Below are positions 5,766-21,270 of a stretch of DNA of 64,000 nucleotides, piece by piece. The notes below the pieces were generated by a model. That model saw only the letters and a list, made by a program, of their open reading frames with translations. It ran no database searches and had not been told where the DNA came from. The translations under genes were made by a program, and so were the position numbers. Where the stretch lies: NCBI GenBank assembly GCA_927441705.1, contig CAKMKH010000043.1, positions 1 to 64,000 on the forward strand. The letters are read 5' to 3'. The DNA comes from an uncultured Acholeplasmataceae bacterium. GTDB lineage: Bacteria; Bacillota_I; Bacilli_A; Acholeplasmatales; Acholeplasmataceae. The first letter of the stretch is position 1, and every line of letters begins with the position of its first letter.

Positions 5766-6584
5766 TCAATCACAATTAATATGCTTAATCGTATCTCTAT
5801 CATTCTTTGTTAGTTCAAAATCAAAAATATCAATGTTTTCAAATTGATGTTGTTTGTTGTGTGATTTAGGAATCACTACTAAACCTTCATTGACTTGATA
5901 ATTTAGAATGATTTGATTCCATGTTTTCTTATATGGTTTTGCTATTTCTATTAATATATCTTTTGTCTTAGCATCAAGCTTAGCAAACGATTGATATGCC
6001 TGAGGTATAATATCATTTGCTTTGCAAAAATCTATTAATGATTGTTGGTATTTGCCAGGATATGATTGGAATTGATTGAGTACAGGTTTAATTCTAGAAT
6101 GCTTAATCAAATAAGATAATTGGTTTTCATCGAAGTTTGATACTCCAATCGACTTTATATGACCTTTATCAATAAATGTTTCTAATATACGCCAAACTCG
6201 TAAGTTCTCTAAATTTGATTCAAGTGGAAAGTGAATCAAGTACAGATCAATATAACCCAAATCAAGTGCTTTAAGTGATTGTTCTACATGATATTGAACA
6301 AGTTCATTAGTTTCAGAAAATTCTTTATCCTGAGGGATTTTCGAAGTGATAAAAAATTCACTTCTATCAATATTAGATTCTTTAACTGCTTTCCCAATAA
6401 CCGCTTCATTGCGGTAATAAATAGCAGTATCTATTAGTCTATACCCTAATTCAATTGCAGAACATAGTTCTTTTGTATCATAAGTAATTTTGCCATTAAA
6501 ATTACCATTTTCTTTTCCAAAAGTATTCGTTCCTGTTCCTAACACGGGAATACTTAATCCATTATTCATTCTAAGGTACTTCAT
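5766..6584 (-). CDS. Aldo/keto reductase
   Basis: GTGTNTFG, YRLIDTAIYYRNE, SIGVSNF, IPKS motifs. Confidence 0.9.
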   Translation of the reverse strand: MKYLRMNNGLSIPVLGTGTNTFGKENGNFNGKITYDTKELCSAIELGYRLIDTAIYYRNEAVIGKAVKESNIDRSEFFITSKIPQDKEFSETNELVQYHVEQSLKALDLGYIDLYLIHFPLESNLENLRVWRILETFIDKGHIKSIGVSNFDENQLSYLIKHSRIKPVLNQFQSYPGKYQQSLIDFCKANDIIPQAYQSFAKLDAKTKDILIEIAKPYKKTWNQIILNYQVNEGLVVIPKSHNKQHQFENIDIFDFELTKNDRDTIKHINCD

Positions 6585-6709
6585 ACGAACACATCCTTTT
6601 CTTAAGTCTATTATACCAGTAAACCAATCATTTTATAGGTTGCAATCATTTGTGATACCAGAAACTTCTAGGGTCTATTAGATAATCAATTACATATATA
6701 GGTATCAAG

Positions 6710-6739
6710 AAAAAAGCTCTTCCCATAGATGAGAAAAGC
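6710..6739 (-). terminator. Terminator of tRNA-Glu-tail repeat copy A
   Basis: Minus-strand GCTTTTCTCAT-CT-ATGGGAAGAGC-TTTTTT, fully paired with G.U wobbles. Confidence 0.8.
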
Positions 6740-6754
6740 ATTTCATATTATTAT

Positions 6755-6773
6755 TGGTGATCCTTAAAGGTTA
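6755..6773 (-). repeat. Decayed tRNA-Glu 3'-end copy A
   Basis: TGGTGATCCTTAAAGGTT versus intact TGGTGACCCGTACGGGGTT; next to homologous terminator. Confidence 0.6.
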
Positions 6774-6827
6774 AGGACGTCTAAATAAACTAATCTATTA
6801 ATAACTGTCCTATATAAAAATGAGGCC

Positions 6828-7448
6828 TTAAGCTAAAACTAATTTTTGCTTATATCTTTTAGTTTTAAATTTTCTAACTTCATATATGATTTTCATTACA
6901 AAATAAAACCCAAAAATAACAATATATAATATTAGATTGATGGTTTGTGTATAGTTTAAAATCAAATGAATGAATAACAATAAATAGATAATATATGCTG
7001 CAGATTGAATTAGATTCCAAGTTTTAACTTTCATCTTTTTTCTTATCTTTAAAAATGATGTGATAAATAAAGGAATCATTAAAGCAAAACTGATTAATCC
7101 AAACCACTCTAAAGATCTTGTTCCATCTAGACCTTGCAGTGTATAATTAAGTGCATGTGGTGAAATTACAATAAATCCTATAATAGAATATTCTCTTCTA
7201 AGCCCCATAAACTTAGCTTTAATTTTATGCTTTTTGTCGATTGCTCCTGTAATCATTACGATATAGAAAAAACTTAATCCTAAAAACCCCTGTATGAATG
7301 GCACAGTGATAGCTTTATCTTTAAAAATAAAAGCAAGTATGGATAGAATGACTGCAGCAATATAAATTTTTACATTATGCTTTCTAATAAATTTTCCAGC
7401 ATACATGGCCAAAATAGTCAATATAATCAAAAACGCAAGTACTATCAT
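6828..7448 (-). CDS. Membrane protein, ferric-reductase-like/MsrQ-like heme domain family (tentative)
   Basis: About 6 TM helices with LRREYSIIGFIVISPHALNY and FIHLIL histidines. Confidence 0.5.
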   Translation of the reverse strand: MIVLAFLIILTILAMYAGKFIRKHNVKIYIAAVILSILAFIFKDKAITVPFIQGFLGLSFFYIVMITGAIDKKHKIKAKFMGLRREYSIIGFIVISPHALNYTLQGLDGTRSLEWFGLISFALMIPLFITSFLKIRKKMKVKTWNLIQSAAYIIYLLLFIHLILNYTQTINLILYIVIFGFYFVMKIIYEVRKFKTKRYKQKLVLA

Positions 7449-7463
7449 TAAATAATTCTCCTT

Positions 7464-8030
7464 TTAGATGTTTAATATGTTTAAATAACTTGATAAATAT
7501 TTTCTTTGTTCATTTTCATCTATTAGATGATATATCGGTTGTTCTTCCATAATTGCATATCTGAGCAATAGGCCAACAATGATTTCCGCAAAAGAAATTG
7601 AATCAACATTTAATTCATGATACAAAACATACTTAGATATAGTTTGTATCACTTGGTTATATATCATTCTTGTGAATCCGAGTTCTTGAGGTAATGTGTG
7701 TGCTAATGTTTCCCTAATAAGCATTTTTATTAGTTTTGTATGCTTAGATATCATCAACATTTTTTCATGCATAATCAAACGTATAAAATCTCGAAGATTT
7801 ATATTTATGTCAATCGATTTATTATCAACGATTGACACTCCTATAGCTTGTTTAATGGATTCCAAAAACAAATTATTCTTCGTTTGAAAATTACGAAATA
7901 ATGTCATCTCCGATACACCAGCTCTTTTAGATATCTCTAAAGTGGTTGCTAAATTATACCCTTTTTCTGAAAACACTTCTAAACTTGCCTCTAAAATTAA
8001 ATCTTTTTTCTCTTTCAAATCTCTCACCAT
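7464..8030 (-). CDS. TetR/AcrR family regulator
   Basis: N-terminal HTH: KKDLILEASLEVFSEKGYNLATTLEISKRAGVSEMTLFRNF. Confidence 0.88.
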   Translation of the reverse strand: MVRDLKEKKDLILEASLEVFSEKGYNLATTLEISKRAGVSEMTLFRNFQTKNNLFLESIKQAIGVSIVDNKSIDININLRDFIRLIMHEKMLMISKHTKLIKMLIRETLAHTLPQELGFTRMIYNQVIQTISKYVLYHELNVDSISFAEIIVGLLLRYAIMEEQPIYHLIDENEQRKYLSSYLNILNI

Positions 8031-8035
8031 CTTTC

Positions 8036-9400
8036 TTATGAAGCAGTTAAAGGTTCTAAGACCTTAACTTCTTTACTAAATGTGATTGCTAAAATTGTAG
8101 GTAAAACTACAATTGTTGATAGCAATGCTAATGATAAATTGACTAATGTCATTATACCAAAATTAGATAAAATCACGAAGTCTGAAAAGATGAGTGCACT
8201 AAATCCTCCCATAGTTGTCAAAGCAGACACAAGAATTGGATTTGCCATTCTTGATAATGTGTTTTTGATTGCTTCTTGTCTATTATCAGTCTTCAGTTTT
8301 TCTTCTTCAAAACGTTCTGTAATTAGTATGGTGAACTCTGTACCTATACCCATAATTAAAGCTCCTAGTGTAGCAGTTAGTGGAGTGTAACTAATACCGA
8401 ACAATGCCATAATACCACCACTCCATCCAACAATAATAATGATTGGAATTATAGGAAGAATTGCTCTATAAAAAGATCTATAGATAACGAGTAAGCTGAT
8501 AAATATAAGCGCTAATCCAATTAATGTAATTTCATATCGTCCCGTTGTTAATGCGTCCATCATTTCACTATCGATTACAGATTGTCCGGTAATCGATATT
8601 TTTGAATCTGTATTGATGAGATTGATATCTTTTTCTAGATTATTGATAAAACTACTAAATTGTTCATCACTCATCTCTACAATTGAAACATTAATCACTG
8701 TTTTTGTATAAGATTCATTAATAAACAATTTTCTCTGATCTAAAGGCATACCTTGCAGAGTAGTTTCATTAATCATTCCAAGATCTGTTAAACCCATCAT
8801 TTCTAGTAGACTAAGCAGTGATGATGTCTCGATAATGTTTTCCTCATATGTTGTTATAAATAGACTTTCAACGTCTTTAATAACTGCGAGATTCTCTAAA
8901 GATAATATATATGTATCTTCAATGATAATGGCGATTTGTTCTGTTGAACCAATAATATTTCTTAATTCCTTAATATCGGCTAAAGCTTCACTTTCTTGAG
9001 GCATAAAGTTTTCAAGATTTGTTTCTGCTTCTGCACTTTGATCAACATAGATACCAACAATAGCTAATAAGATGGCTAAACTTAAGATCACATATTTTAA
9101 TTTTAAAACAATGCCAACTAGATTTGAAACAAATATATTGGGTTTTACCTTTTTTGACTTCTTCTGTTTCTCTTCTTTAGGAAAATGTTTATCTCTAATG
9201 TACAAAAACGGAATAAAGATAAAAACTCCTATCATAAAAGCAATTACAATACCTAAAGTTAGCATTGCACCAAAATCATTAATCATTGGTACTTTAGATC
9301 GATATAGACTTAAGAGTCCAAGTCCAGTTGAAATCATTGCAATCATAACTGCTGGGACCATTTTTTTAATAGTCATTATTAATGCTTTATTATGTTTCAT
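8036..9400 (-). CDS. MMPL/RND-family transporter, C-terminal half (separated by an in-frame TAA)
   Basis: MMPL TM topology; GIGTEFTILITERFEEE; same frame as 9404..10822. Confidence 0.85.
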   Translation of the reverse strand: MKHNKALIMTIKKMVPAVMIAMISTGLGLLSLYRSKVPMINDFGAMLTLGIVIAFMIGVFIFIPFLYIRDKHFPKEEKQKKSKKVKPNIFVSNLVGIVLKLKYVILSLAILLAIVGIYVDQSAEAETNLENFMPQESEALADIKELRNIIGSTEQIAIIIEDTYILSLENLAVIKDVESLFITTYEENIIETSSLLSLLEMMGLTDLGMINETTLQGMPLDQRKLFINESYTKTVINVSIVEMSDEQFSSFINNLEKDINLINTDSKISITGQSVIDSEMMDALTTGRYEITLIGLALIFISLLVIYRSFYRAILPIIPIIIIVGWSGGIMALFGISYTPLTATLGALIMGIGTEFTILITERFEEEKLKTDNRQEAIKNTLSRMANPILVSALTTMGGFSALIFSDFVILSNFGIMTLVNLSLALLSTIVVLPTILAITFSKEVKVLEPLTAS

Positions 9401-9403
9401 GAC

Positions 9404-10822
9404 TTAACCTCTTTCCTCTTCATATCGTGTTTGAAATTGTATGAAATAATCTATACCTAATCCAATGAGAACAGGAAATACTGCCATAGATACCATAGTT
9501 AATCCAATAGATAACCATCCCATCATACCAATGGTTGCAACAACAGCAAATAAAATCATAACAATCGGCAGAAGTCTCATGCGGACTTTATAAATAAGTA
9601 GCAAAATTAAAACCATTATAACTACAGCAGATATGATCATATATTGCATGCTCTCTGTCATAGAGGATTTGATTGAACGGTCTAGAATTGGCTTTCCCGA
9701 AACTAGTACTTGATCTTCACTACCCTCTAGTTCTAATCGATTGACTATTGTTTCATAGATAGTATCAATTTGCTGATCAGTGACGTTACCATTTAAGACT
9801 ATAATCATACGTAGTTGTTCTTCATTTACAATAAAACTACTAAACATATTTTTAACTTTATCAGCCTCGTCAAATATCATCATATAAAGTGTTTCTGATG
9901 AGCTTGGAAAACTAGGTTCAAATGCATTGAAATGAGTATGTATCTGAGCTAGATTTGTTCCCATATTCCCTAAATTAATGCTCATCATATGAAGTGCTTG
10001 AGATAATGTTTGGATAGATTCGAGTTGTGTGGTTAGTGTTCCAGATAAGTTAAACAAAGTTAACATCAATTGATTTAATGCAAGACTGGTTTGTTCAGGA
10101 ATTGATGTCATATTTTCTTGTAATAGTAACTGAGAAATATTTTGATTCATCACTTCTGTTTGCAATATTGTTGATTCAGTTAATTCTAACGCTTCAGTTA
10201 ATGTTGGGTCTGATTCAATTTGTGTTTTTAAGGTGTTTAAATCGGTTTTTAAATCAACTACAGCTAAATTCAATAATTCTAATACACTAAACATATTGAC
10301 TAAACCTGTATTTAATTGATCTTGTGCATTAATCAACTGGCCTAAGTTTGCTGATAATAATTCTAAATCTGGCAATTCTTGAGAATCTCCAGATATCATT
10401 TGTGTTGAAAGTTGATCAAGTTGTAAAGATAGCGAATTTAGTCCTATTGCCATTTGATCAAGTCCATTTTCGGTTTGATTGTAAAGTGATACACTCACTT
10501 GATTAATAATCGTGACCGGACTGTTAATTGCAAAAATGCCTTCTAAATTTTCAATATCCTGTTGGACTTCATTCATTAATAGTAATGAAGACGTCTCGTA
10601 CAATGTTTCTTGATCAAAAATCATAATTATTGGGTCTTTTCCAAATTCATTTTGATATGCCTCATTATCCTGATAAATATCTGTCTGATCAGAGATTAAT
10701 GTATCATTTCCTGTATTTAATTCAATTTGAGTCACACCAATGATTAACCCAATTATTATAACAAACGTAAATATAAGTGTTTTGACTGGGTACTTCATGA
10801 TGAAAGTTGTTAGATTTTTCAT
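9404..10822 (-). CDS. MMPL/RND-family transporter, N-terminal half
   Basis: TM1, large extracellular domain, TM2-4 ending IGLGIDYFIQFQTRYEEERG, typical middle of an MMPL half. Confidence 0.85.
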   Translation of the reverse strand: MKNLTTFIMKYPVKTLIFTFVIIIGLIIGVTQIELNTGNDTLISDQTDIYQDNEAYQNEFGKDPIIMIFDQETLYETSSLLLMNEVQQDIENLEGIFAINSPVTIINQVSVSLYNQTENGLDQMAIGLNSLSLQLDQLSTQMISGDSQELPDLELLSANLGQLINAQDQLNTGLVNMFSVLELLNLAVVDLKTDLNTLKTQIESDPTLTEALELTESTILQTEVMNQNISQLLLQENMTSIPEQTSLALNQLMLTLFNLSGTLTTQLESIQTLSQALHMMSINLGNMGTNLAQIHTHFNAFEPSFPSSSETLYMMIFDEADKVKNMFSSFIVNEEQLRMIIVLNGNVTDQQIDTIYETIVNRLELEGSEDQVLVSGKPILDRSIKSSMTESMQYMIISAVVIMVLILLLIYKVRMRLLPIVMILFAVVATIGMMGWLSIGLTMVSMAVFPVLIGLGIDYFIQFQTRYEEERG

Positions 10823-10839
10823 GATATTCTCCTTTTAGT

Positions 10840-10855
10840 GTTAGTGCTCACTAAC
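10840..10855. promoter_or_regulatory. Putative TetR operator
   Basis: GTTAGTG-CT-CACTAAC, 7-bp perfect arms, between the -10 and the start codon of the MMPL operon. Confidence 0.65.
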
Positions 10856-10857
10856 TT

Positions 10858-10886
10858 ATAATACATGAAACAAACTAAAATGTAAA
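10858..10886 (-). promoter_or_regulatory. Sigma70-type promoter of MMPL/TetR operon
   Basis: Minus strand TTTACA-17 nt-TATTAT, next to the operator. Confidence 0.65.
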
Positions 10887-11138
10887 GAAAGAAATTTCGA
10901 ATCGTATAAAATGTTTGTTTTTACCACAAAATAACAATTTCTTGAATTGTGAATTCATATAAAATATACATTTGCTTTTCATATTTATCAGCTGTTAATA
11001 AATCGCTTCATTATGCTAATATCATAAAATATAAGGCTTGCATCAAGCTAGATTCGAAGACGAAATTAATCACTAATCAAGCTTATGTTGTAGCTTTATT
11101 TAATTACATGTTATACTGAAATCAAAGGAGTGATTTAA

Positions 11139-11642
11139 ATGAATAAAAAATTAGAAAAAGCAATCAACACACAAATTAACTTTGAAATAGAGTCAGCATT
11201 TATTTATCTAGCAATGAAAAATTATATTGAAACTTTATCTTTAGACGGTTTTGTAAATTGGTTTGACATTCAATTTCAAGAAGAAATGGCACATGCACAA
11301 AAATTTATGGATTTTGTCAATAATCTTGGTGGTAGAGTAGAAATTACAAATTGGGAATCACCTAAAAATGAGTATAAATCTATTTTAGAAGTACTAGAAA
11401 CTTCATTAGGTCATGAAAAAGAAGTTACAAGAAGAATTCACAATTTAATGAATTTAGCTGAAGAAGAAAAGGATTATCCTACGATTAGTCTATTACATTG
11501 GTATGTAGATGAACAAGTTAAAGAGGAAGACAATTTCTCTAGATTGATTGAAAAAGTTAAATTAGTAAAGGATGCTGGATTATATATACTAGATAAAGAA
11601 TTAGAATCAAGAACATTTGTTCCTATAAATCCAGAAAAATGA
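11139..11642 (+). CDS. ftnA: Non-heme ferritin
   Basis: ESAFIYLAMKNY, FEEMAHAQKFMDF-type ferroxidase residues, WYVDEQVKEE. Confidence 0.93.
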   Translation: MNKKLEKAINTQINFEIESAFIYLAMKNYIETLSLDGFVNWFDIQFQEEMAHAQKFMDFVNNLGGRVEITNWESPKNEYKSILEVLETSLGHEKEVTRRIHNLMNLAEEEKDYPTISLLHWYVDEQVKEEDNFSRLIEKVKLVKDAGLYILDKELESRTFVPINPEK

Positions 11643-11685
11643 CGTTTATAAGTTTAATAATTATAACAACATAAATGATAAACTA

Positions 11686-11718
11686 ATGGTCTCGTATGCT
11701 TACGAGACTTTTTTTTAT
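11686..11718 (+). terminator. Terminator after ferritin
   Basis: GTCTCGTA-TGCT-TACGAGAC-TTTTTTT. Confidence 0.85.
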
Positions 11719-11797
11719 ACTTATTTTTCTTATTTTAAAATATATAATAATTGATAAAATTGTGTAAAATTCGATTTCAATACATATATATTTATAA

Positions 11798-11826
11798 TAA
11801 AAACTCTTCCCAGCATTGAGAAGAGT
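11798..11826 (-). terminator. Terminator of repeat copy B
   Basis: Minus strand ACTCTTCTCA-ATGC-TGGGAAGAGT-TTTT. Confidence 0.8.
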
Positions 11827-11841
11827 ATCACATGATTTAAT

Positions 11842-11860
11842 TGGTGACCCTTAGGGTCCA
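11842..11860 (-). repeat. Decayed tRNA-Glu 3'-end copy B
   Basis: TGGTGACCCTTAGGGTCC versus intact TGGTGACCCGTACGGGGTTC. Confidence 0.7.
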
Positions 11861-11975
11861 TACAATCATCTGTGTCTTATAAATAGACTGAAATTAACTT
11901 ATTTAAACTTGTAGATATGCAATGTCAATAATTAGGCTATATTCAATACAAGTTCTTGTATGTTAAATAGTTGTT

Positions 11976-12230
11976 TTATCCGTGTTCTAAGATAATAAGT
12001 GCACATAATGCATAGTAGAACCAAGTAAATGTTTCAATAGAAGAAAAGTTCATACTTTTTTTATAAAAGATTAAAGCAATCACACCAAGGATTGGTATGA
12101 TGCTGTTCATCACTTTAATCACACCATCATAATATTCTGTTGAATACAGTTTTTGAAAAATAACATAAAACTTATGTCCAAATAAATTGGTCTGATCTAC
12201 AGGTTTGAATACTTTTGTTTTAACTCTTGA
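11976..12230 (-). pseudogene. Probable 5'-truncated membrane-protein gene remnant
   Basis: Minus-strand open frame SRVKTKVFKPVDQTNLFGHKFYVIFQKLYSTEYYDGVIKVMNSIIPILGVIALIFYKKSMNFSSIETFTWFYYALCALIILEHG*; no suitable start; overlaps 3' end of next gene. Confidence 0.5.
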
Positions 12231-13381
12231 TATATTTGATCAATTTCTTGCATACGCTTTGGTATATCTATGTTTTGTGGACATTTAGGCAAACACTCAC
12301 CACACGCCACACAATTTCTAGCTAATTTTTCTTTGCCAAGTTCTTCATAGTCTTTAACAAATGCTTTTCCAAATTTAGAAATTGCATATTTATTGTATGC
12401 CTTAAATACACTTGGAATATCTACATCGTGATCACATGGCATACAATACTTGCAATTTGTACAAGGAATAGTATTGTTTTCTAAGAATACTTTAAGGGTT
12501 TTATCAATCACTTTTTGCTCATCATTAGTTAGTGGTTTGAAATCAGATAAGGTCTTAACATTATCCATGGTTTGTTCTAAGTTGCTCATACCACTTAATA
12601 CTGTCATCACTTGATCTTTAGATGCTGCATATCTTATCGCCCAAGAAGCAATAGATTCATTAGGTTTAGCTACTTTTAAGATGCTCGCTGCATCTTCACT
12701 TAATTGCGCGAGTGTTCCACCTCTAACAGGTTCCATAACAATAATTGGAACACCGTAAGATTCAACGATTTTATATTGTTTTTTTGCGTTTTGGAAATCC
12801 CAATCTAAATAATTTAGTTGGAGTTGTACAAAATCCCATGTATACGTATGAATAATTTCATCTAAGACTTCAGGTGTATCATGAAAAGAAAATCCTAAAT
12901 GCCGAATTTTCCCATTTGCTTTCATTTGCTGTAAGAATGCCATAATTTCAGGTTTTTGATAGATCTCAAAGTTTTTTTTGCCTAAAGCATGACATAAATA
13001 AAAATCAAAATACTCAACTTGACATTTTTCGAGTTGTTCATTAAAGATTCTTTTTGCATCATCAACAGTCTCAATTTCCCATCCAGGCATTTTGTTCGCA
13101 AGATAAAATGAGTCTCTTGGATATTTTTTGAGTGCTTCACCTATAAATAGTTCACTTAATCCTTGATGATAAGGATATGCTGTATCAAAGTAATTTACAC
13201 CATGTTGATATGCATAATCAATCATTTCTTCTGCTTGTTTAATGTCAATGTCTGGTTTTTCATGATCTAATCTTGGGAGTCTCATACATCCGAATCCTAA
13301 AACGGAAGGATTTTCATTGATACCTTTGAATGGTTTGATTTTTTTAGATACTTTTATGTTCATGTCCAGTTTTATACTCAT
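12197..13381 (-). CDS. Aldo/keto reductase with C-terminal 4Fe-4S ferredoxin-type domain
   Basis: AKR motifs plus CTNCKYCMPCDHDVDIP and CVACGECLPKCPQNIDIP. Confidence 0.92.
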   Translation of the reverse strand: MSIKLDMNIKVSKKIKPFKGINENPSVLGFGCMRLPRLDHEKPDIDIKQAEEMIDYAYQHGVNYFDTAYPYHQGLSELFIGEALKKYPRDSFYLANKMPGWEIETVDDAKRIFNEQLEKCQVEYFDFYLCHALGKKNFEIYQKPEIMAFLQQMKANGKIRHLGFSFHDTPEVLDEIIHTYTWDFVQLQLNYLDWDFQNAKKQYKIVESYGVPIIVMEPVRGGTLAQLSEDAASILKVAKPNESIASWAIRYAASKDQVMTVLSGMSNLEQTMDNVKTLSDFKPLTNDEQKVIDKTLKVFLENNTIPCTNCKYCMPCDHDVDIPSVFKAYNKYAISKFGKAFVKDYEELGKEKLARNCVACGECLPKCPQNIDIPKRMQEIDQIYQELKQKYSNL

Positions 13382-13562
13382 TAGTATAGAAAAACTAAGG
13401 GCATAACTCCTCTCAAATAATTTTCTTGCAGTAGATATAATAAAAACAATATAACTCTTATTTATACTCTATAATTTGATTATCCCACAATACTAATGAT
13501 TTCAATAAATTGTAAGCAATTTCTTGAGTCTGAAATTTAAATCCAAACAAGATTATTGTTAT

Positions 13563-14147
13563 TTACTTTATTCTTGTTAATCCAGCAAGAATAGAGTATC
13601 TCTTTTTATTTTCATCACAAGAGCCATACTTCTCACCTAATTTTTCAAAAAAACTACCTAACTCTTCAAATTCTTCTTCTGATAAATAAATGTCTGTGGC
13701 TGAAACAAATCCAAATTCTGTAGGATCTTGAGTTTTTGATTCCATTGTTTTGTTTGATGCGTTAAAAAAATCTTTTTTAAAATTATTAATAAGATTTGCA
13801 ACCAATGATTCAACTTCATTGAGTTGACTATATAATTTTTCAGTTTCTTTATCTTTTAATTGAATAGTAAAAGCCTTTTTAGGAAGGTAGTAATATTTCG
13901 CATTGATTCCATTGATGATTTCAATATGGTCTAGTGCTAATATATCGATAGATAATAATTTTTTAACATGATAATGTATTTTTGAGGGCACCTCGCCCAT
14001 ATAATCAGCACATTGTTTTACTGTTAGGGGAACACCATATCTTTTGTATATGTTCATTATTTTCATTCGATATGGATCATTAAATATTTTTAATTCTTCA
14101 TCTGTACTAATTATTCTTATTTTCCCATCCATACAATCACTCCTCAT
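13563..14147 (-). CDS. ArsR-like winged-helix transcriptional regulator
   Basis: IFNDPYRMKIMNIYKRYGVPLTVKQCADYMGEVPSKIHYHVKKL. Confidence 0.75.
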   Translation of the reverse strand: MRSDCMDGKIRIISTDEELKIFNDPYRMKIMNIYKRYGVPLTVKQCADYMGEVPSKIHYHVKKLLSIDILALDHIEIINGINAKYYYLPKKAFTIQLKDKETEKLYSQLNEVESLVANLINNFKKDFFNASNKTMESKTQDPTEFGFVSATDIYLSEEEFEELGSFFEKLGEKYGSCDENKKRYSILAGLTRIK

Positions 14148-14177
14148 TGAGTATTATATCACATAAATTGTAGAGCT

Positions 14178-15407
14178 TTAAACTAACTTTTTGTTTCTAT
14201 TGAACAACCAAAAAATCAATGATAGTAAGATTCCACTCATTCCCATAATAATAAATAACAAGGAAACTGAAATGCTATCTCCAATAATGGACACTGCGAA
14301 TCCTCCAAGTGGCATTGTACAAAGTACAACTACACCCATGATAGACGATAATCTTCCTCTCATTTCCGGAGCTGTGGTTTTCATGATTGCTGCATTCATT
14401 GGTGCAGTTACAATTGGAACACTGGCTCCAAATAGAAACGACATTAAAATGACAAAAATTAGAGTTGTATTTACAGAAAAGTTTGTATAAGCTGGAACAC
14501 CCAATAACATATACGTTAAGCCTACTAGAGATAATCCAATGGCTATAGCATTGATAGGATTCACTTTTTTACCTTTAAAACCCATTAGATATCCGCCTGT
14601 TATCATTCCAACCAACAATGAAACCCCAAGATAGCTTAACCCTTCAACTCCCATCTTTAATACTTCGCTTACATAAATAGGACGCAAGATATTATAAGGA
14701 ACCATAGAGAAATTTACAAATGAAGCTAATAGTAATAACGCTATCAAGACTCCTTTGGTTTTTAAATAAGCAACTCCTTCTCCAATGAGTATAAAATAGT
14801 CTTTTACTTTTGGCTTTTCAGCAACAGTTTCTCTTTTATCTTTAAACTCGATTGAGAAAATTATCATCCCTGATAATAAAAATGTAAAAGCGTCAATTAA
14901 AATTGTCACCCATATACCAAAAAGAGCAATTAGTACAGCAGCTATGCTTAACCCAATCAATGCTCCAACACTAGAAGCGGTACCAATCCAAGATGATCCT
15001 TTTACATAGTCTTCTTTTTCTATGATGTTAGGTAATATACTTCCCCTTGCAGGATCAGCTAATGATTCAAATGTTGAATTTATTGAAACAAATACAAATA
15101 AATGCCAAACCTCTAGAATATTTAAGAAATAGAATACAGCAAGTATAGCAACGCTAAGACTTCTTAATAAATCACCTAATACTGTGATTGTTTTCTTATT
15201 AAAGGCATCTGCTAGTACGCCTCCAAAAGGCAATACAATAATATTAGGAATAATACTTATAGCGAATATTGTTCCCATAAGTACTCTACTACCTGTCATG
15301 ACATAAACCATCCAACTAAACGCTATAGAATCAATATAATCTCCAAATCTTGTAATAAACGTTGCAGTAAGCAGTTTTGTATAATTCTTATTAATTATTG
15401 ATTTCAT
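14178..15407 (-). CDS. MFS transporter (drug efflux type)
   Basis: 12-TM MFS pattern, FGGVLADAFNKK, MRGRLSSIMG. Confidence 0.9.
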   Translation of the reverse strand: MKSIINKNYTKLLTATFITRFGDYIDSIAFSWMVYVMTGSRVLMGTIFAISIIPNIIVLPFGGVLADAFNKKTITVLGDLLRSLSVAILAVFYFLNILEVWHLFVFVSINSTFESLADPARGSILPNIIEKEDYVKGSSWIGTASSVGALIGLSIAAVLIALFGIWVTILIDAFTFLLSGMIIFSIEFKDKRETVAEKPKVKDYFILIGEGVAYLKTKGVLIALLLLASFVNFSMVPYNILRPIYVSEVLKMGVEGLSYLGVSLLVGMITGGYLMGFKGKKVNPINAIAIGLSLVGLTYMLLGVPAYTNFSVNTTLIFVILMSFLFGASVPIVTAPMNAAIMKTTAPEMRGRLSSIMGVVVLCTMPLGGFAVSIIGDSISVSLLFIIMGMSGILLSLIFWLFNRNKKLV

Positions 15408-15554
15408 CAGACTTTCTCCGTTAAATATATTTTTTCGTTAAATTTTTTTTATTGTTAGTTTTATAATATTACTGTTTTAATAAAAAGTCAATAGCAACGT
15501 TAAATTATTTTTCTCGTTGTTTGTATTTTTTTATAAATAGTGCTTCAAGACAAA

Positions 15555-15586
15555 TAAAAAAGTCCATCTCATGGGTGAGAAAGACT
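15555..15586 (-). terminator. Terminator of repeat copy C
   Basis: Minus strand AGTCTTTCTCA-CCCA-TGAGATGGACT-TTTTT (one mismatch). Confidence 0.75.
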
Positions 15587-15600
15587 TTATATGATTATTT

Positions 15601-15619
15601 TGGTGACCCGTAGTTGTTC
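15601..15619 (-). repeat. Decayed tRNA-Glu 3'-end copy C
   Basis: TGGTGACCCGTAGTTGTTC versus intact TGGTGACCCGTACGGGGTTC. Confidence 0.75.
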
Positions 15620-15673
15620 ACGTTATTTACAGAGCAAATCACACTAGACTGATATAGAAGTCCTTGTATTACG

Positions 15674-15985
15674 CTACAAATCTTGAAGATAATCGACTTT
15701 AGAGTATATGACTCTAACAATTTCAACTATTTTATCTTTTGAATTGTAAAAATAGAGAATAATATAATTCTCAACAATACATTTTCTTAGGTCAATTTCA
15801 TAAATGAATTTGCTCTCTACTAGCGGATAAGATAATGGGAACAACAAAAGTTCATTAAACTTACTCTCAAATTTGTCTATTAGATCTGATGCGGCTTCTT
15901 GATTCACTAGCTCAATTGCAATATAGTAAAAGATATTTTCTAAATCATCTTTTGCTTTAGGAAATAGTATATACCTATTTTCCAT
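15674..15985 (-). CDS. RelE/ParE-family toxin
   Basis: FPKAKDDLENIFYYIAIEL...LLLFPLSYPLV...LRKCIVENYIILYFYN...VRVIYSKVDYL; overlaps antitoxin gene. Confidence 0.85.
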   Translation of the reverse strand: MENRYILFPKAKDDLENIFYYIAIELVNQEAASDLIDKFESKFNELLLFPLSYPLVESKFIYEIDLRKCIVENYIILYFYNSKDKIVEIVRVIYSKVDYLQDL

Positions 15986-16265
15986 ACTTCGTTTTCATCT
16001 CATTTAGGAAAAGTGCTCCATCAACCTTTTGATCAACATTATCTATGTCTTTAAGTGATTCATTGATAAATTCAATCATTTGTTTTTTGGCAATCTCTTT
16101 TTCATAAACAGAGATGCTCATGATAACCATAGAACCATAACCATTTTTGGTTACAAAAACGGGTTCATTGGTTTCTTCTACATATTTAGAAATCGAGGCA
16201 GTATTCTTAAGTTCTCTGATTGGTATAATTTTTGGCATAATTATTATCTCCTTTTTATACCACAA
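15975..16265 (-). CDS. Phd/YefM-family antitoxin
   Basis: IIPIRELKNTASISKYVEETNEPVFVTKNGYGSMVIMSISVYE. Confidence 0.85.
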   Translation of the reverse strand: MWYKKEIIIMPKIIPIRELKNTASISKYVEETNEPVFVTKNGYGSMVIMSISVYEKEIAKKQMIEFINESLKDIDNVDQKVDGALFLNEMKTKYGK

Positions 16266-16301
16266 TTATACCACGTTAATTCAGTGATTGCAATTTTAAA
16301 T

Positions 16302-17174
16302 TCAATTTGCAATAAATAATCTATAATATAATTTTACTTTTTCTATATCAAAGGATATAACTTGATTAAAGTCTACATATTCACAGATGAATTGGACAAA
16401 TTTGGCACTCAAATAATAACCAGCATCCGAATAACCATTATAAAAAACCCAATCTCCAAAATATCTTTGATTTTGATGATTCATTGCCTCTATATCTTCA
16501 GTAAAATCTATTTTCAAGTCAAGTAGATGATTATCAAGATATTGTTTCCATTCACCGTCACCTTGATGATAGAAAGAAAAATCGCCAAGAAGTGCTTGTT
16601 CGAAATACATTGCAATCCCTTCTGTGAATAATTGCCATAAGAATTTATCTTTAGAGTCATCAAACCTTCTATCTAAAATACCATACTGCTTTTGATAGAC
16701 GTGTCCTAGTTCGTGGTATATTAATCCAACCATATGTTTTTTATCGCACCAATTTAGTTCAATAATTTTCTCAATTCCAAGAAGTACCTTTGTTTGTCCA
16801 TTTATACTAGTTACCCATCCTGCTCCATTACATAACCCCAGATATAAAACAATTTCTACATCCATAGATTTATGAAAATACTCAATAACATTTGATTCAA
16901 TATCTTTAGTAATTAGATTAAACATATCCTTAATGTCCTTAACTTTGTTCTTTTCTTTTAAGACCCCATTAAGAATAGGAATACATTGTATATTAAAATT
17001 ATAATCTTTTATATCTTCAAGGAATATTGATGACGACTTAGGAAATATGCGCTCAATATAAATCTTCCATTTTGCTAAAGAGAAAGTTCCGTTATAATAA
17101 ACATTTTCAATTTGATTAATTCCATTTGTTATTCTCATTAAATCATTCCTTTTAATTGTGCGATTAATTTCCAA
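16302..17174 (-). CDS. Putative zinc metallopeptidase-like protein
   Basis: HExxH motif in GLIYHELGHVYQKQYG; downstream FTEGIAMYFEQ. Confidence 0.6.
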   Translation of the reverse strand: MEINRTIKRNDLMRITNGINQIENVYYNGTFSLAKWKIYIERIFPKSSSIFLEDIKDYNFNIQCIPILNGVLKEKNKVKDIKDMFNLITKDIESNVIEYFHKSMDVEIVLYLGLCNGAGWVTSINGQTKVLLGIEKIIELNWCDKKHMVGLIYHELGHVYQKQYGILDRRFDDSKDKFLWQLFTEGIAMYFEQALLGDFSFYHQGDGEWKQYLDNHLLDLKIDFTEDIEAMNHQNQRYFGDWVFYNGYSDAGYYLSAKFVQFICEYVDFNQVISFDIEKVKLYYRLFIAN

Positions 17175-17367
17175 TTAATAAATAGGAATCTACCCTTCTA
17201 ATAACTACTCAATCTCACAATTTGTTTTAGTTTTCCCAAAAACGTATTCTTTATTACCTTTATTATATATCACTCATACTCAAATCCAAATTTTATTTAT
17301 AAATGGATAATCTCAAATTTATCCTCGTCAACCACAAATATCCTGTGAATTTAAAAAAATAGTAAAA

Positions 17368-17383
17368 CTTATGTAGAGATAAG
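17368..17383. repeat. Palindromic motif CTTAT-GTAGAG-ATAAG
   Basis: Imperfect copies at 17468 and 20935, and ACTTATGTAAATATAAGT at 20856. Confidence 0.4.
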
Positions 17384-17489
17384 CAGGCATTTGTAGTTGA
17401 AACAAAACGAGAGTTTGTAAAACCTCATGTAATTCCTTACGTCGGGTTCTAAATTTTACTTTCTTTGCTTATGTGTAGATAAAAACAGG

Positions 17490-17567
17490 TGCTCACTCCT
17501 TAAGCGAATTACATCAAATGCAACACTCCTTAAAGTTCTTGGACATCAATTAAGATCAAACCATTAA
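17490..17567 (+). pseudogene. Possible tyrosine recombinase C-terminal remnant
   Basis: CSLLKRITSNATLLKVLGHQLRSNH*; LKVLGHQ resembles the conserved LGH motif of phage-type integrases. Confidence 0.35.
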
Positions 17568-17610
17568 ATCCACCTGAATCAAATCTCATTTTATGTCTTG
17601 ATGTAGATAA

Positions 17611-17640
17611 TAAAGACCCCATCTCAACTAAGAAATGGGG
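17611..17640 (-). terminator. Terminator of repeat copy D
   Basis: Minus strand CCCCATTTC-TTAGTT-GAGATGGGG then GTCTTT. Confidence 0.7.
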
Positions 17641-17654
17641 GTTCATAATAACTT

Positions 17655-17674
17655 TGGTGACCCGTAGGGGTTCA
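17655..17674 (-). repeat. tRNA-Glu 3'-end copy D (best preserved)
   Basis: TGGTGACCCGTAGGGGTTC versus intact TGGTGACCCGTACGGGGTTC (one gap). Confidence 0.85.
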
Positions 17675-17768
17675 CACAATCATCCGTGTATTACTGACTA
17701 GACTGCTATAGAAATTTAAATTTCACGTATAGTTTTAGTGATACTATATCAACTTTATATACTAATTT

Positions 17769-18752
17769 TTACTTTTTTATATATCTTTGATTTCTACTCA
17801 TAGGTTTTTCAGGAATTGTCATTTCAATCATACCTGATTGTAAAAGTGGATCTAAATAATTTTTTTTAAAAGATGCTCTAGATTTTATACCTACCCTATC
17901 CATAAGCTCTAGAGTCGTATATGGAATACCTTCATCAAAAACAGTAAGTAATTTCTTCGCTTGAATAGACAGACTTCCTTTTTCTATATTTGACTGCTTT
18001 AGGGTTTCATTCATCGTTTCTATAATAGCATCCAACATAAATTCAATAAATATTGTAGATGCGCCTTCTTGATTCGATCTGGATATAGCATCATAGTATG
18101 CTTGTTGTTTCTTCTTGATGATTGATTCTACTGGCAAATAGTAAAAGAGTTCTTCTTCAATAGCAAGTAAGCACGTTTGAAAAAGTCTACCCATTCTACC
18201 ATTGCCATCACTAAAAGGATGGATGAACTCAAATTCATAATGAAATACACATGACTTGATAAGTATATTTTCATCATAATGATTCAAGTAATCATAAAGC
18301 TCATTCACTAAAGATGGTACTCTGTCTGCAGGAGGTGCCATAAAGATTGCTTTTTCATCATCGAATACACCAACTTGACCTTTTCTATAGGAGCCTGCAT
18401 CAGTGACAAGGGATGTCATAAGTATTTTATGATATTTAAGTAGGTCTTTTTGTGAATAAGGATTAATGTCTTGTATGTGTTCGTAAACTTTGATTGCATT
18501 TTGAACTTCTAATATATCTTTTTGTGGTCCGATGACAAGTTTGCCGTTGATTAAATCTTTGACTTGAGATTCTGATAATTGATTATTTTCAATGGCTAAT
18601 GATGAGTGAATAGATTTTATTTGGTTTTTTCTTCTTAGCAAAGGTTGGCTACTTAAGTTATTCATCGAAGAAAACTTACCAATCATTTTCATGATAGCAG
18701 CAACTTTATTAAGTATAGATGTATTTATGTCATAGGGTGGTTTGTAGCACAT
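17769..18752 (-). CDS. Fic-domain protein (probable AMP transferase) with N-terminal inhibitory motif and C-terminal winged helix
   Basis: HPFSDGNGRMGR Fic motif; SLAIEN matches (S/T)xxxE(G/N). Confidence 0.93.
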   Translation of the reverse strand: MCYKPPYDINTSILNKVAAIMKMIGKFSSMNNLSSQPLLRRKNQIKSIHSSLAIENNQLSESQVKDLINGKLVIGPQKDILEVQNAIKVYEHIQDINPYSQKDLLKYHKILMTSLVTDAGSYRKGQVGVFDDEKAIFMAPPADRVPSLVNELYDYLNHYDENILIKSCVFHYEFEFIHPFSDGNGRMGRLFQTCLLAIEEELFYYLPVESIIKKKQQAYYDAISRSNQEGASTIFIEFMLDAIIETMNETLKQSNIEKGSLSIQAKKLLTVFDEGIPYTTLELMDRVGIKSRASFKKNYLDPLLQSGMIEMTIPEKPMSRNQRYIKK

Positions 18753-18862
18753 ACGTCATCAACTCCTCTTACCTATATTATACCATTAATGAGTTTATCT
18801 TGTATGTTTTCTTATATGTTTTCTTGTATGCTATATGTATATACAAAAACTCTTTTCATTCA

Positions 18863-19561
18863 TTACTTATAACTATTCATTAATACAGATTTCTTGTAAG
18901 AAAATACAGTAGATACTATACTGATGATCAAAATACCAATGACAATAAATTGATAGTTTGGTAAATTTATTAGTTCTGCTGTAACTGGATTTAATATTGA
19001 CAAACTTCCAGTTGCAGCAAAATAGATGACATAATGGATCAATGAAATCATCAGCGCAAAAACGAATCCCAATATATATTTTTTCTTATTTGATTCTAGA
19101 TAGGATAGTGGCATCATTAATGCAACTATAAAAAGATGATGAGCAATATTATATGAATCTGTCCAGAAATTTGTTGTTACTTCCTCGCCATCTGTAATAC
19201 TTACATCACCAAGTAATTCGAAAATTCCAAGAAATACTAGACCTAATAATACAAGGGCTATACTAAGACCGATAAAAACAACAAAAACACTTATGTAATC
19301 ATATTTCGTTTTTTCTCTTGAGGTGAGCGGAAATTGATACATAGGATTTGTAGATTCAAATCTCATTTGATGTGCATAGAAAGACATAGTAAACAGTGAA
19401 AAGATAAAAAATGTAGATGGCCCCATAGTCCAACTGCCATTTTCGCTTAGAAATGCACTTGTTAAAAAGATATAGACTACAACAAAAATTGCTGAAAAGC
19501 CTAAGCCTTTCCTATTCAAATTCATCAAAGTTGTGAGTCTATAATATTTAAAGTATTTCAT
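18863..19561 (-). CDS. ABC-2-like membrane permease component
   Basis: Multi-TM; translationally coupled to downstream-listed ATPase gene. Confidence 0.7.
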   Translation of the reverse strand: MKYFKYYRLTTLMNLNRKGLGFSAIFVVVYIFLTSAFLSENGSWTMGPSTFFIFSLFTMSFYAHQMRFESTNPMYQFPLTSREKTKYDYISVFVVFIGLSIALVLLGLVFLGIFELLGDVSITDGEEVTTNFWTDSYNIAHHLFIVALMMPLSYLESNKKKYILGFVFALMISLIHYVIYFAATGSLSILNPVTAELINLPNYQFIVIGILIISIVSTVFSYKKSVLMNSYK

Positions 19562-20409
19562 TTTTGCTCCCCCTCTCCTTTGCTTATATGAATAAATACT
19601 TCTTCCAAAGTAGGCCGTTGATACATAATCTTCATTTTTAAAGCAAATTCTTTTTTCATTAATCCTTCAACACCAAAAGAAGTATACTGTGGATATAAGA
19701 TATGTTCATTTGGTAGTTGATCTTCAGTTAATTTAACAAATACGTATGCATCTAACATCGAATCCTTATCTTGGAATAGTTTAATCTCACCTTTATCTAT
19801 TATCGCGATATAGTCAGATATTTTTTCAATATCTTCTACATAATGACTTGATATCAAAACGGTATGATTTTCATCTTCCATAAATGTTTGAACATGTTTC
19901 ATCATTTTTTGTTTATCAACAGGATCAATACCTATAAAAGGTTCATCTAATAATAAAATGGTTGGTTTTAGTGCTAAAGCTATCGATAAACTCAATTTTT
20001 TTTGCATGCCTAGTGACATTTTATTCATTTTTTTATCTAATGGGATGCTAAATTCATCACATAAGCTAAGAAAGTATTGATCATCGAAATTCGAATACAT
20101 CATTTTGTTATATTTATATAACCTCTTTCCTTTTGTAAATGGATTAACATTCATCATGTCGTGTACGATTGCTATAGATTCTCTAATTTCTTTCTCGTTT
20201 GATTCATATGTATGACCATTGAGGTACATTTGTCCATTATGTTTCAAATGTGTTCCAAGCAAAGTTTTCAATAATGTTGTCTTACCGGCTCCATTTTTAC
20301 CAAGCAAACCTAAAATACTACCCTTTGGCATTAATAAATTAATGTTTTTTAATTCAAATGTTTCAATTCTTGCATATACATCCTTCATCTCAATACTATA
20401 CATATCCAA
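19558..20409 (-). CDS. ABC transporter ATP-binding protein
   Basis: GKNGAGKTTLLK Walker A, MSLGMQKKLSL signature, LLLDEPFIGID Walker B. Confidence 0.95.
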   Translation of the reverse strand: MDMYSIEMKDVYARIETFELKNINLLMPKGSILGLLGKNGAGKTTLLKTLLGTHLKHNGQMYLNGHTYESNEKEIRESIAIVHDMMNVNPFTKGKRLYKYNKMMYSNFDDQYFLSLCDEFSIPLDKKMNKMSLGMQKKLSLSIALALKPTILLLDEPFIGIDPVDKQKMMKHVQTFMEDENHTVLISSHYVEDIEKISDYIAIIDKGEIKLFQDKDSMLDAYVFVKLTEDQLPNEHILYPQYTSFGVEGLMKKEFALKMKIMYQRPTLEEVFIHISKGEGEQK

Positions 20410-20418
20410 TTCCTCCCC

Positions 20419-20778
20419 TTATTCTTTCACAAAGTTTTCAATATCTTGATCAGTTATATTGGCTTCTTCTTTTAATGATTCAATTATCTTTAGATGTTCT
20501 TTAATACGATTTAAATATTCTTTTTTTATAGTGTCCTCATTATATGTTAAGACATAATAACCTTTAGCTGATTTACTATATAAATACCCTTCAGATACTA
20601 AATCATCATAAGCCCTTTTGACAGTTACAATACCTACTTGAAGTTCTTTGGCTAGCATTCTAATGCTAGGCAGCTGTTCATCTATATTAAGTTTTTTGTG
20701 TATAATCAGTTTTTTAATTTGTTCTTTTATTTGTTCATAGATTGGTATATCTGAATGCATTGAAATGAGTAAGTTCAT
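20419..20778 (-). CDS. GntR-family regulator (YtrA-like)
   Basis: PIYEQIKEQIKKLIIHKKLNIDEQLPSIRMLAKELQVGIVTVKRAYDDL, short effector region, next to ABC genes. Confidence 0.9.
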   Translation of the reverse strand: MNLLISMHSDIPIYEQIKEQIKKLIIHKKLNIDEQLPSIRMLAKELQVGIVTVKRAYDDLVSEGYLYSKSAKGYYVLTYNEDTIKKEYLNRIKEHLKIIESLKEEANITDQDIENFVKE

Positions 20779-20855
20779 TCAATCACCTCGTTCTTATTGT
20801 AATTATACTATAGATACAGTTATGTAGTCAATATTGTTTTTTAAAACTGTAGAAA

Positions 20856-20873
20856 ACTTATGTAAATATAAGT
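20856..20873. repeat. Palindromic motif ACTTATGTAAATATAAGT
   Basis: Shares the CTTAT-N6-ATAAG plan with 17368..17383; related copy at 20935..20950. Confidence 0.4.
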
Positions 20874-21052
20874 TGGTTTTTTTACTGTATTTTTAGAATC
20901 GTTATAGGACCTCTCTCTCGTGATTTAAAAACTGCTTATGTCATTATAAATTTCGGTCATTGTTGCAGTATTGATGAAAATTGGTCAAATTGCTAATAGT
21001 TCTATTTTTATCACTTCTTAAAAACAAAAATATACCTAATAATTTCTATAAA

Positions 21053-21080
21053 AAAAGCCCTTCCCACGGGTGAGAAGAGC
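21053..21080 (-). terminator. Terminator of tRNA-Glu
   Basis: Minus strand GCTCTTCTCAC-CCG-TGGGAAGGGC-TTTTTTT, wobble pairs set the strand. Confidence 0.85.
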
Positions 21081-21095
21081 GTTTCATGTTTTTAT

Positions 21096-21171
21096 TGGTG
21101 ACCCGTACGGGGTTCGAACCCGTGAGTGCATGCGTGAAAGGCATGTGAGTTAACCGTTTCTCCAACGGGCC
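21096..21171 (-). tRNA. tRNA-Glu (anticodon UUC)
   Basis: 76 nt GGCCCGT...CTTTCAC anticodon loop...ACGGGTTCGAACCCCGT-ACGGGTC-A-CCA; cloverleaf folds by hand. Confidence 0.95.
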
Positions 21172-21179
21172 AATAACGA

Positions 21180-21270
21180 TGGCGGAGCAGGAGGGATTTG
21201 AACCCTCGCACCAGTCTCCTGGTCTACACCCTTAGCAGGGGCGCCTCTTCAGCCACTTGAGTACTACTCC
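21180..21270 (-). tRNA. tRNA-Ser (anticodon GCU)
   Basis: 91 nt GGAGTAG...CTGCTAA anticodon loop, long variable arm, encoded CCA. Confidence 0.95.

Follow-up and report, generated by a model that had tools for sequence, protein, structure and literature searches.

What has placed four copies of a tRNA-Glu 3' end, one behind the other, beside the intact gene in a wall-less bacterium of the Acholeplasmataceae, and where would the enzyme responsible come from? The question is raised by the window, by which we mean the whole 64,000-nucleotide stretch of DNA analyzed here. It runs from base 1 onward of contig C43 in a 1.76-Mb draft genome (G000), whose Tex protein has Tenericutes bacterium MO-XQ (91%) and Acholeplasmataceae MAGs as its nearest named relatives. 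Arrays in which single genes accumulate are known chiefly from integrons, which rely on a tyrosine recombinase and folded sites. Since larger members of the arrays in relatives of this genome carry the likely insertion enzymes, the present site looks like a gene-collecting array with machinery unlike that of the known integrons. We consider it probable that this cassette system, which targets tRNA-Glu, resembles the staphylococcal cassette chromosome (SCC); most of its cassettes have no recombinase and would be moved in trans, with a pair of serine recombinases as the enzyme.

The docking gene and its serial sites

The elements that define the array in the window are as follows, with the source of each assignment in brackets where there is one.

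21180 to 21270, minus strand: tRNA-Ser(GCT) adjoining tRNA-Glu (ARAGORN)
21096 to 21171, minus strand: tRNA-Glu(TTC), the docking gene (ARAGORN and sequence)
21102 to 21111, minus strand: palindrome CCCGTACGGG, enclosing part of the core region at the tRNA-Glu end (sequence)
21096 to 21107, minus strand: shared core TACGGGTCACCA, the tRNA-Glu end (sequence)
21030 to 21095, minus strand: terminator and start of the right arm of the tRNA-proximal cassette
17655 to 17744, minus strand: site D, core at 17655-17666 plus L-arm (R1 E=1e-24, training member)
15601 to 15690, minus strand: site C, core at 15601-15612 plus L-arm (R1 E=1.6e-17, training member)
11842 to 11931, minus strand: site B, core at 11842-11853 plus decayed L-arm (R1 E=2.6e-5)
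6755 to 6809, minus strand: site A, most decayed core (10/12), L-arm barely recognizable (nhmmer E=1e-18, seed member)
5766 to 6584, minus strand: aldo/keto reductase, the chromosomal boundary gene

An earlier note on this locus had placed four repeats of the tRNA-Glu 3' end here, in the orientation of the tRNA and on its 3' side, and all of this is confirmed. Each unit consists of a tRNA 3' end, an AT-rich linker and a hairpin terminator, and the outermost, A, adjoins the chromosomal boundary. Over the last 12 bases the matches to TACGGGTCACCA number 12 in D, 12 in C, 11 in B and 10 in A; over the last 20 bases, aligned to the tRNA without gaps, they number 16, 14, 13 and 13. The higher figures given before (19, 17, 16 and 14) came from a gapped hand alignment; the order D ≥ C ≥ B ≥ A is nevertheless upheld. 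The repeat unit is real but longer than had been seen, since the arm that precedes the core was missed. Many sites have about 90 bp of non-tRNA sequence upstream of the core, with the consensus GGTCACCAAAACTATCCGTGAAATATAGATATCTATATCAGTCTAGTCTGATAGACACTGAAAAAAATGTGAACCCCTACGGGTCACCA, and this conserved L-arm closes most cassettes. Sites D, C and B match the L-arm model at the E-values listed; it was trained on 16 sequences, which include D and C and exclude B. In most class I sites, a second GTCACCA opens the L-arm, some 80 bp before the core copy.

The terminator hairpin in each unit might suggest a dispersed terminator repeat, or tRNA pseudogenes that resemble insertion scars. We find this scarcely credible. 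The 12-mer underlying the core, searched as TGGTGACCCNTA, has just six matches in the 1.76-Mb genome (the two tRNA-Glu genes, B, C, D and one on contig C83), and its reversed control has none in the whole genome. The sites retain no more of the tRNA than its last ~12-20 nt, with the conserved non-tRNA arm in front of these, and segments are present or absent among relatives; the empty site and the exchange of cassettes described below contradict such a repeat. The C83 match (L131, G000:C83, 16114, minus strand) is an off-array site without a tRNA gene and with a T2-type right arm, which a contig break or a displaced piece of the array could explain.

Cassettes in the window and their cargo

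The sites divide the array into four stretches, given here from the tRNA outward.

17655 to 21095, minus strand: cassette 1
20419 to 20778, minus strand: GntR, cassette 1
19558 to 20409, minus strand: ABC ATPase, cassette 1
18863 to 19561, minus strand: ABC-2 membrane protein, cassette 1
17769 to 18752, minus strand: Fic, cassette 1
15601 to 17654, minus strand: cassette 2
16302 to 17174, minus strand: DUF5700-like peptidase, cassette 2
15975 to 16265, minus strand: Phd/YefM antitoxin, cassette 2
15674 to 15985, minus strand: ParE toxin, cassette 2
11842 to 15600, minus strand: cassette 3
14178 to 15407, minus strand: MFS-like transporter, cassette 3
13563 to 14147, minus strand: ArsR-like protein, as read in the earlier note (no Pfam match), cassette 3
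12197 to 13381, minus strand: Fe-S aldo/keto reductase, cassette 3
6755 to 11841, minus strand: cassette 4
11139 to 11642, plus strand: ferritin-like protein, cassette 4
9404 to 10822 and 8036 to 9400, minus strand: two MMPL halves, cassette 4
7464 to 8030, minus strand: TetR-like regulator, cassette 4
6828 to 7448, minus strand: weak ferric-reductase-like membrane protein, cassette 4

The stretch next to the tRNA had been taken for a single segment with Fic, ABC and GntR genes. The genes are there, but two cassettes, GntR-ABC and Fic, have probably fused into cassette 1, with the junction near 18849, because the site expected between the ABC operon and the Fic cassette is gone. At 18840-18860, the homology with the Fic cassette of G006 begins about 40 bp inside the right arm of the G006 cassette, directly after the ABC operon.

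Among 146 cassette proteins compared with Pfam there are 12 HTH regulators, eight ParE toxins, seven Fic proteins and seven Phd/YefM antitoxins, besides HepT/nucleotidyltransferase pairs and others; SoFic is among the PADLOC matches. Further cassettes hold a photolyase, Mrr and NERD nucleases and HD-GYP-type proteins, and the large element of G004 carries a type I restriction subunit. Most ORFs (212/225) run along the tRNA strand, which we set aside as proof, since the genes flanking the array in the window run the same way.

Arrays in relatives and their decay gradient

When the tRNA-Ser/Glu end was searched for in 40 relatives, many of these genomes proved to have several copies of the 3' end beyond tRNA-Glu, on its 3' side. 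The tRNA-Ser gene is the fixed upstream neighbor of the array in most relatives, and the aldo/keto reductase of 5766-6584 stands at the far end of the array or past it in G001, G002, G003, G006 and G055 as well (six genomes with the window). In the fetched regions, nhmmer detected 99 sites in 26 regions, 22 of which have at least two sites and represent arrays or array fragments; these give 73 site-to-site intervals with a median of 2.2 kb. Most units measure 0.4-5 kb, and up to eight stand in a row. The genomes are mostly drafts in which arrays tend to break contigs, and the ORFs are mechanical calls.

The sequence-only L-arm model reached further, finding sites in 24/88 genomes of the family (E<=0.01), in 28/160 of the order (E<=0.001) and in 13/395 of a sample of the class (E<=1e-4), where one family with sites lies outside the order; some of the model's training sites came from the window and its relatives. 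All tRNA-anchored arrays sit at tRNA-Glu. Further copies, which the earlier note had envisaged, are indeed found mostly at the tRNA-Glu locus in other genera and not genome-wide, apart from a few off the array. Viral contigs (searched with one exact pattern), phage records and plasmid records gave no site copy, and a limited paper collection had nothing relevant on integron-like tRNA arrays or serine recombinases of Acholeplasma.

Several single loci are worth recording. In the family that lies outside the order, an array of this kind occurs at a tRNA-Glu(CTC) with an identical 3' end (L233, G282:C9, 2523-2598 and 8463). Groups of two and three sites lie away from any tRNA gene at L166 (G004:C1 1700001-1719000) and L167 (G055:C47 362001-380000), one in a near-complete genome and one on a large contig; it is possible that these are relocated array pieces. 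Four further matches (88%) to the tRNA-Glu region are seen in G007:C1 near 2802, 1858293, 1867936 and 1877590, three of them about 9.6 kb apart.

Across 11 tRNA-anchored arrays, the core matches drop with distance from the tRNA (within-array shuffles, p=0.0002-0.0006), and they do so without the window's array too (p=0.0004). The decay away from the intact gene, first proposed from the four sites of the window, is significant over this larger set, and such a gradient fits insertion beside the tRNA followed by outward ageing.

Exact joins, cassette exchange and the empty site

In many genome pairs the flank homology ends +1 to +8 bp past the CCA (G000/G004 +1, G002/G004 +1, G000/G006 +8); in other pairs it runs past the CCA because the adjoining right arms are related. 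The cassettes themselves are exchanged between genera. The one at 6255-8479 of G006 is that at 8719-10939 of G021, 92% identical over its full length (2.2 kb), at another rank and in another genus. The Fic protein of the window recurs in cassettes of G006, G055, G019 and G066 at 83-93%, and cassette 2 shares its toxin-antitoxin genes with G006 and one of them also with G021.

The earlier note had predicted that relatives would have or lack segments, with clean joins at a tRNA-Glu 3' end, and this is what was found, at the CCA end. In G042 and G044, about 98-99% identical around the locus, the difference at tRNA-Glu is one cassette of 2,307 bp, which in G044 stands between tRNA-Glu and a flank starting TTAATTAATGAAATACTCTTCTCACGTATGG. 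In G042 the CCA of the tRNA is joined straight to the TTAATTAATGAAATACTCTTCTCACGTATGG flank, one base different, and the site is empty. This single pair is compatible with an unfilled site as well as with a cured one. The differing base is that of the tRNA-side junction of G044, and since it fits that junction better, excision by homologous recombination is possible. A second 2.3-kb segment of G044, beyond the array (L174, 6645-8932), is absent in G042 and ends without att sites or repeats; it is an ordinary indel.

One could extend the argument from the G042 base to the whole locus, and picture an old array reshuffled mainly by homologous recombination between its ~100-bp repeats, with no current site-specific recombination. 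The absence of the recombinase from many array genomes, and a toxin-antitoxin cassette that is shared at the gene level without its arms, would agree with this. However, reshuffling explains neither the arrival of new cassettes with arms of their own nor the near-perfect tRNA-proximal sites and the decay outward from them, and we hold it to be very unlikely. Repeated integration at the tRNA-Glu 3' end, with older junctions displaced outward, was the reading first offered for this locus, and the joins, the empty site and the gradient indicate that it is largely right.

The recombinase-bearing elements

The earlier note saw no intact integrase and suggested that the segments move in trans or are fossils. 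The fetched arrays of 12 genomes have no tyrosine integrase (PF00589) either; the likely enzyme is rather a pair of serine recombinases in larger array members of relatives. In G001 and G004, array elements of 27 kb contain tandem pairs of large serine recombinases. When one of these recombinases was searched for across the family, related pairs came to light in elements of G098 and G062, with the same sites on both sides, and in an element of G063 with one site found. These recombinase-bearing members measure 27-32 kb in four arrays, the fifth having one detected end. The core TACGGGTCACCA is present at both ends of the cassettes and of the G001, G004, G098 and G062 elements. No site was found at any of 13 loci that hold other large serine recombinases. 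In the tree, the first members of the five pairs group in one clade (100/99) and the second members in another (99/97, or 100/99 without G063).

The five elements share a DUF927 Cch-like helicase, DUF960, an HU-like protein, DUF3846 and small ORFs, and RadC is common to 4/5. The helicase matches NF047345 at E=4e-45, under the equivalog cut-off, and PDB 5dgk at E=3e-33, so the autonomous elements appear to have a Cch-type helicase by homology and not as an equivalog. The array recombinases score 100-146 bits against the CcrB model, whose cut-off is 900. Unrelated recombinases from these genomes reach equal or higher scores, and we do not claim that the array enzymes are CcrAB; they are homologs of Ccr, and their scores do not place them among CcrA/CcrB proper.

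Transfer RNA 3' ends are the classical target of tyrosine integrases (Islander, PMC4383910), and in one class of sites a longer piece of tRNA-like sequence, GGGGTTCGAAACCGTTACGGGTCACCA, survives, which would be expected of an integrase core. Both points would agree with a series of tRNA islands that one or several tyrosine integrases produced before they were lost, in the manner of most tRNA-targeted elements, and with the serine-recombinase elements as mere passengers of a hotspot. We think this rather unlikely, since PF00589 is missing from the 12 genomes' arrays, serine recombinases are the sole recombinases found inside site-bounded elements, and 13 loci with other large serine recombinases have no site.

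To come back to the serine pair as the probable enzyme, the assembly of the present genome has no close relative of it (best 35%) and no site in the 20 kb around that best match, and for lack of such a relative the array here is probably dormant. The array genomes G002, G006 and G099 have no match at all to PF00239.

How a cassette may be added

On our reading, repeated site-specific insertion at the tRNA-Glu 3' end would build the array. An incoming cassette would join the tRNA through a crossover located at the central TA of CCCG.TA.CGGG or close by, a placement suggested by the sites, which differ to the left of TA (CCCCG in the tRNA; CCCC, CCAG or CCGT in cassettes) and agree from TA onward. 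It would bring a new tRNA tail and its own terminator, and push outward the older junction, which would be left as an L-arm, TACGGGTCACCA and the older terminator. The small cassettes, with no recombinase and a common attachment site, would most likely be mobilized in trans by autonomous members, which in relatives are taken to be the 27-32-kb SCC-like elements with tandem large serine recombinases, Cch-like helicase and DUF960.

More than one enzyme may act, because the L-arm classes vary between arrays and between autonomous elements. Two further L-arm classes with the same core (ends CTCGGCAAAATTCGTGAACCAGTACGGG and GGGTTTGAAACCGCTACGGG) are seen at L180, L176 and L167 and may reflect more than one recombinase specificity. 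At L165 (G019:C4), near 9635, the L-arm is kept and the core is replaced by GAATGTCTGGAGGACATCT, possibly through insertion at a secondary target.

Conserved CTTAT..ATAAG palindromes lie in the right arms, some 150-290 bp past the core, and the best-kept arms have two of them; in the window they are found 223 and 271 bp beyond the cores of the tRNA and of site D. They were rejected as dif-like elements, the half-sites being in the opposite order. A folded, attC-like site model was rejected for lack of covariation: RNAalifold on 16 L-arm sites gave six pairs, none compensatory.

Comparison with known systems

In SCC and its relatives among the Bacillota, recombinase, helicase and DUF960 co-occur, and the elements are reported at rlmH and ssrA (PMC10061031) and, for CI ccrDE, at rimL (PMC10581047). 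The arrays described here resemble them in the tandem pair of large serine recombinases, the Cch-type helicase and DUF960, in insertion at the 3' end of a gene with that end repeated at the far side, and in composite tandem elements with recombinase-less members. They differ in the target, which is tRNA-Glu rather than rlmH, ssrA or rimL; in the hosts, Acholeplasmataceae and related families; and in the units, which mostly measure 0.4-5 kb, stand in rows of up to eight and have a conserved arm of ~90 bp. The recombinases and the helicase also score far under the curated cut-offs for CcrA/B and Cch1.

The likeness to integrons is one of functional analogy: a fixed dock, gene-sized cassettes without recombinase, tandem stacking with the newest beside the dock, mostly one orientation, and cassette exchange. 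In contrast to integrons, the arrays of the 12 genomes have no IntI or other tyrosine recombinase, the site has no covarying fold, the dock is a tRNA gene and the arms are longer. With tyrosine-integrase tRNA islands and CIME/IME accretion they have in common that the gene is restored when an element enters the tRNA 3' end, and that the tandem elements contain internal att sites; here, however, no tyrosine integrase was found, and the units are much smaller and more numerous. We tentatively suggest a serine-recombinase counterpart of the integron in these wall-less bacteria. Gene-sized, recombinase-less cassettes with a standard ~90-bp arm would be captured at a fixed site, tRNA-Glu, stacked there and exchanged between genera, and the enzyme would be provided in trans by SCC-like elements of the same arrays.

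The cargo of toxin-antitoxin pairs, Fic proteins, nucleases, restriction genes and regulators suggests that the arrays are a reservoir of defense and stress functions. In the Acholeplasmataceae and families related to them, arrays of integron-like logic use a tRNA gene for a dock, and serine recombinases of the SCC type are the enzymes likely to act on them. Should mobilization in trans prove correct, the system would be a second route to the capture of gene cassettes; it would extend SCC-like elements to a new host group and a new target, and would offer a model for the origin of small recombinase-less SCC units.
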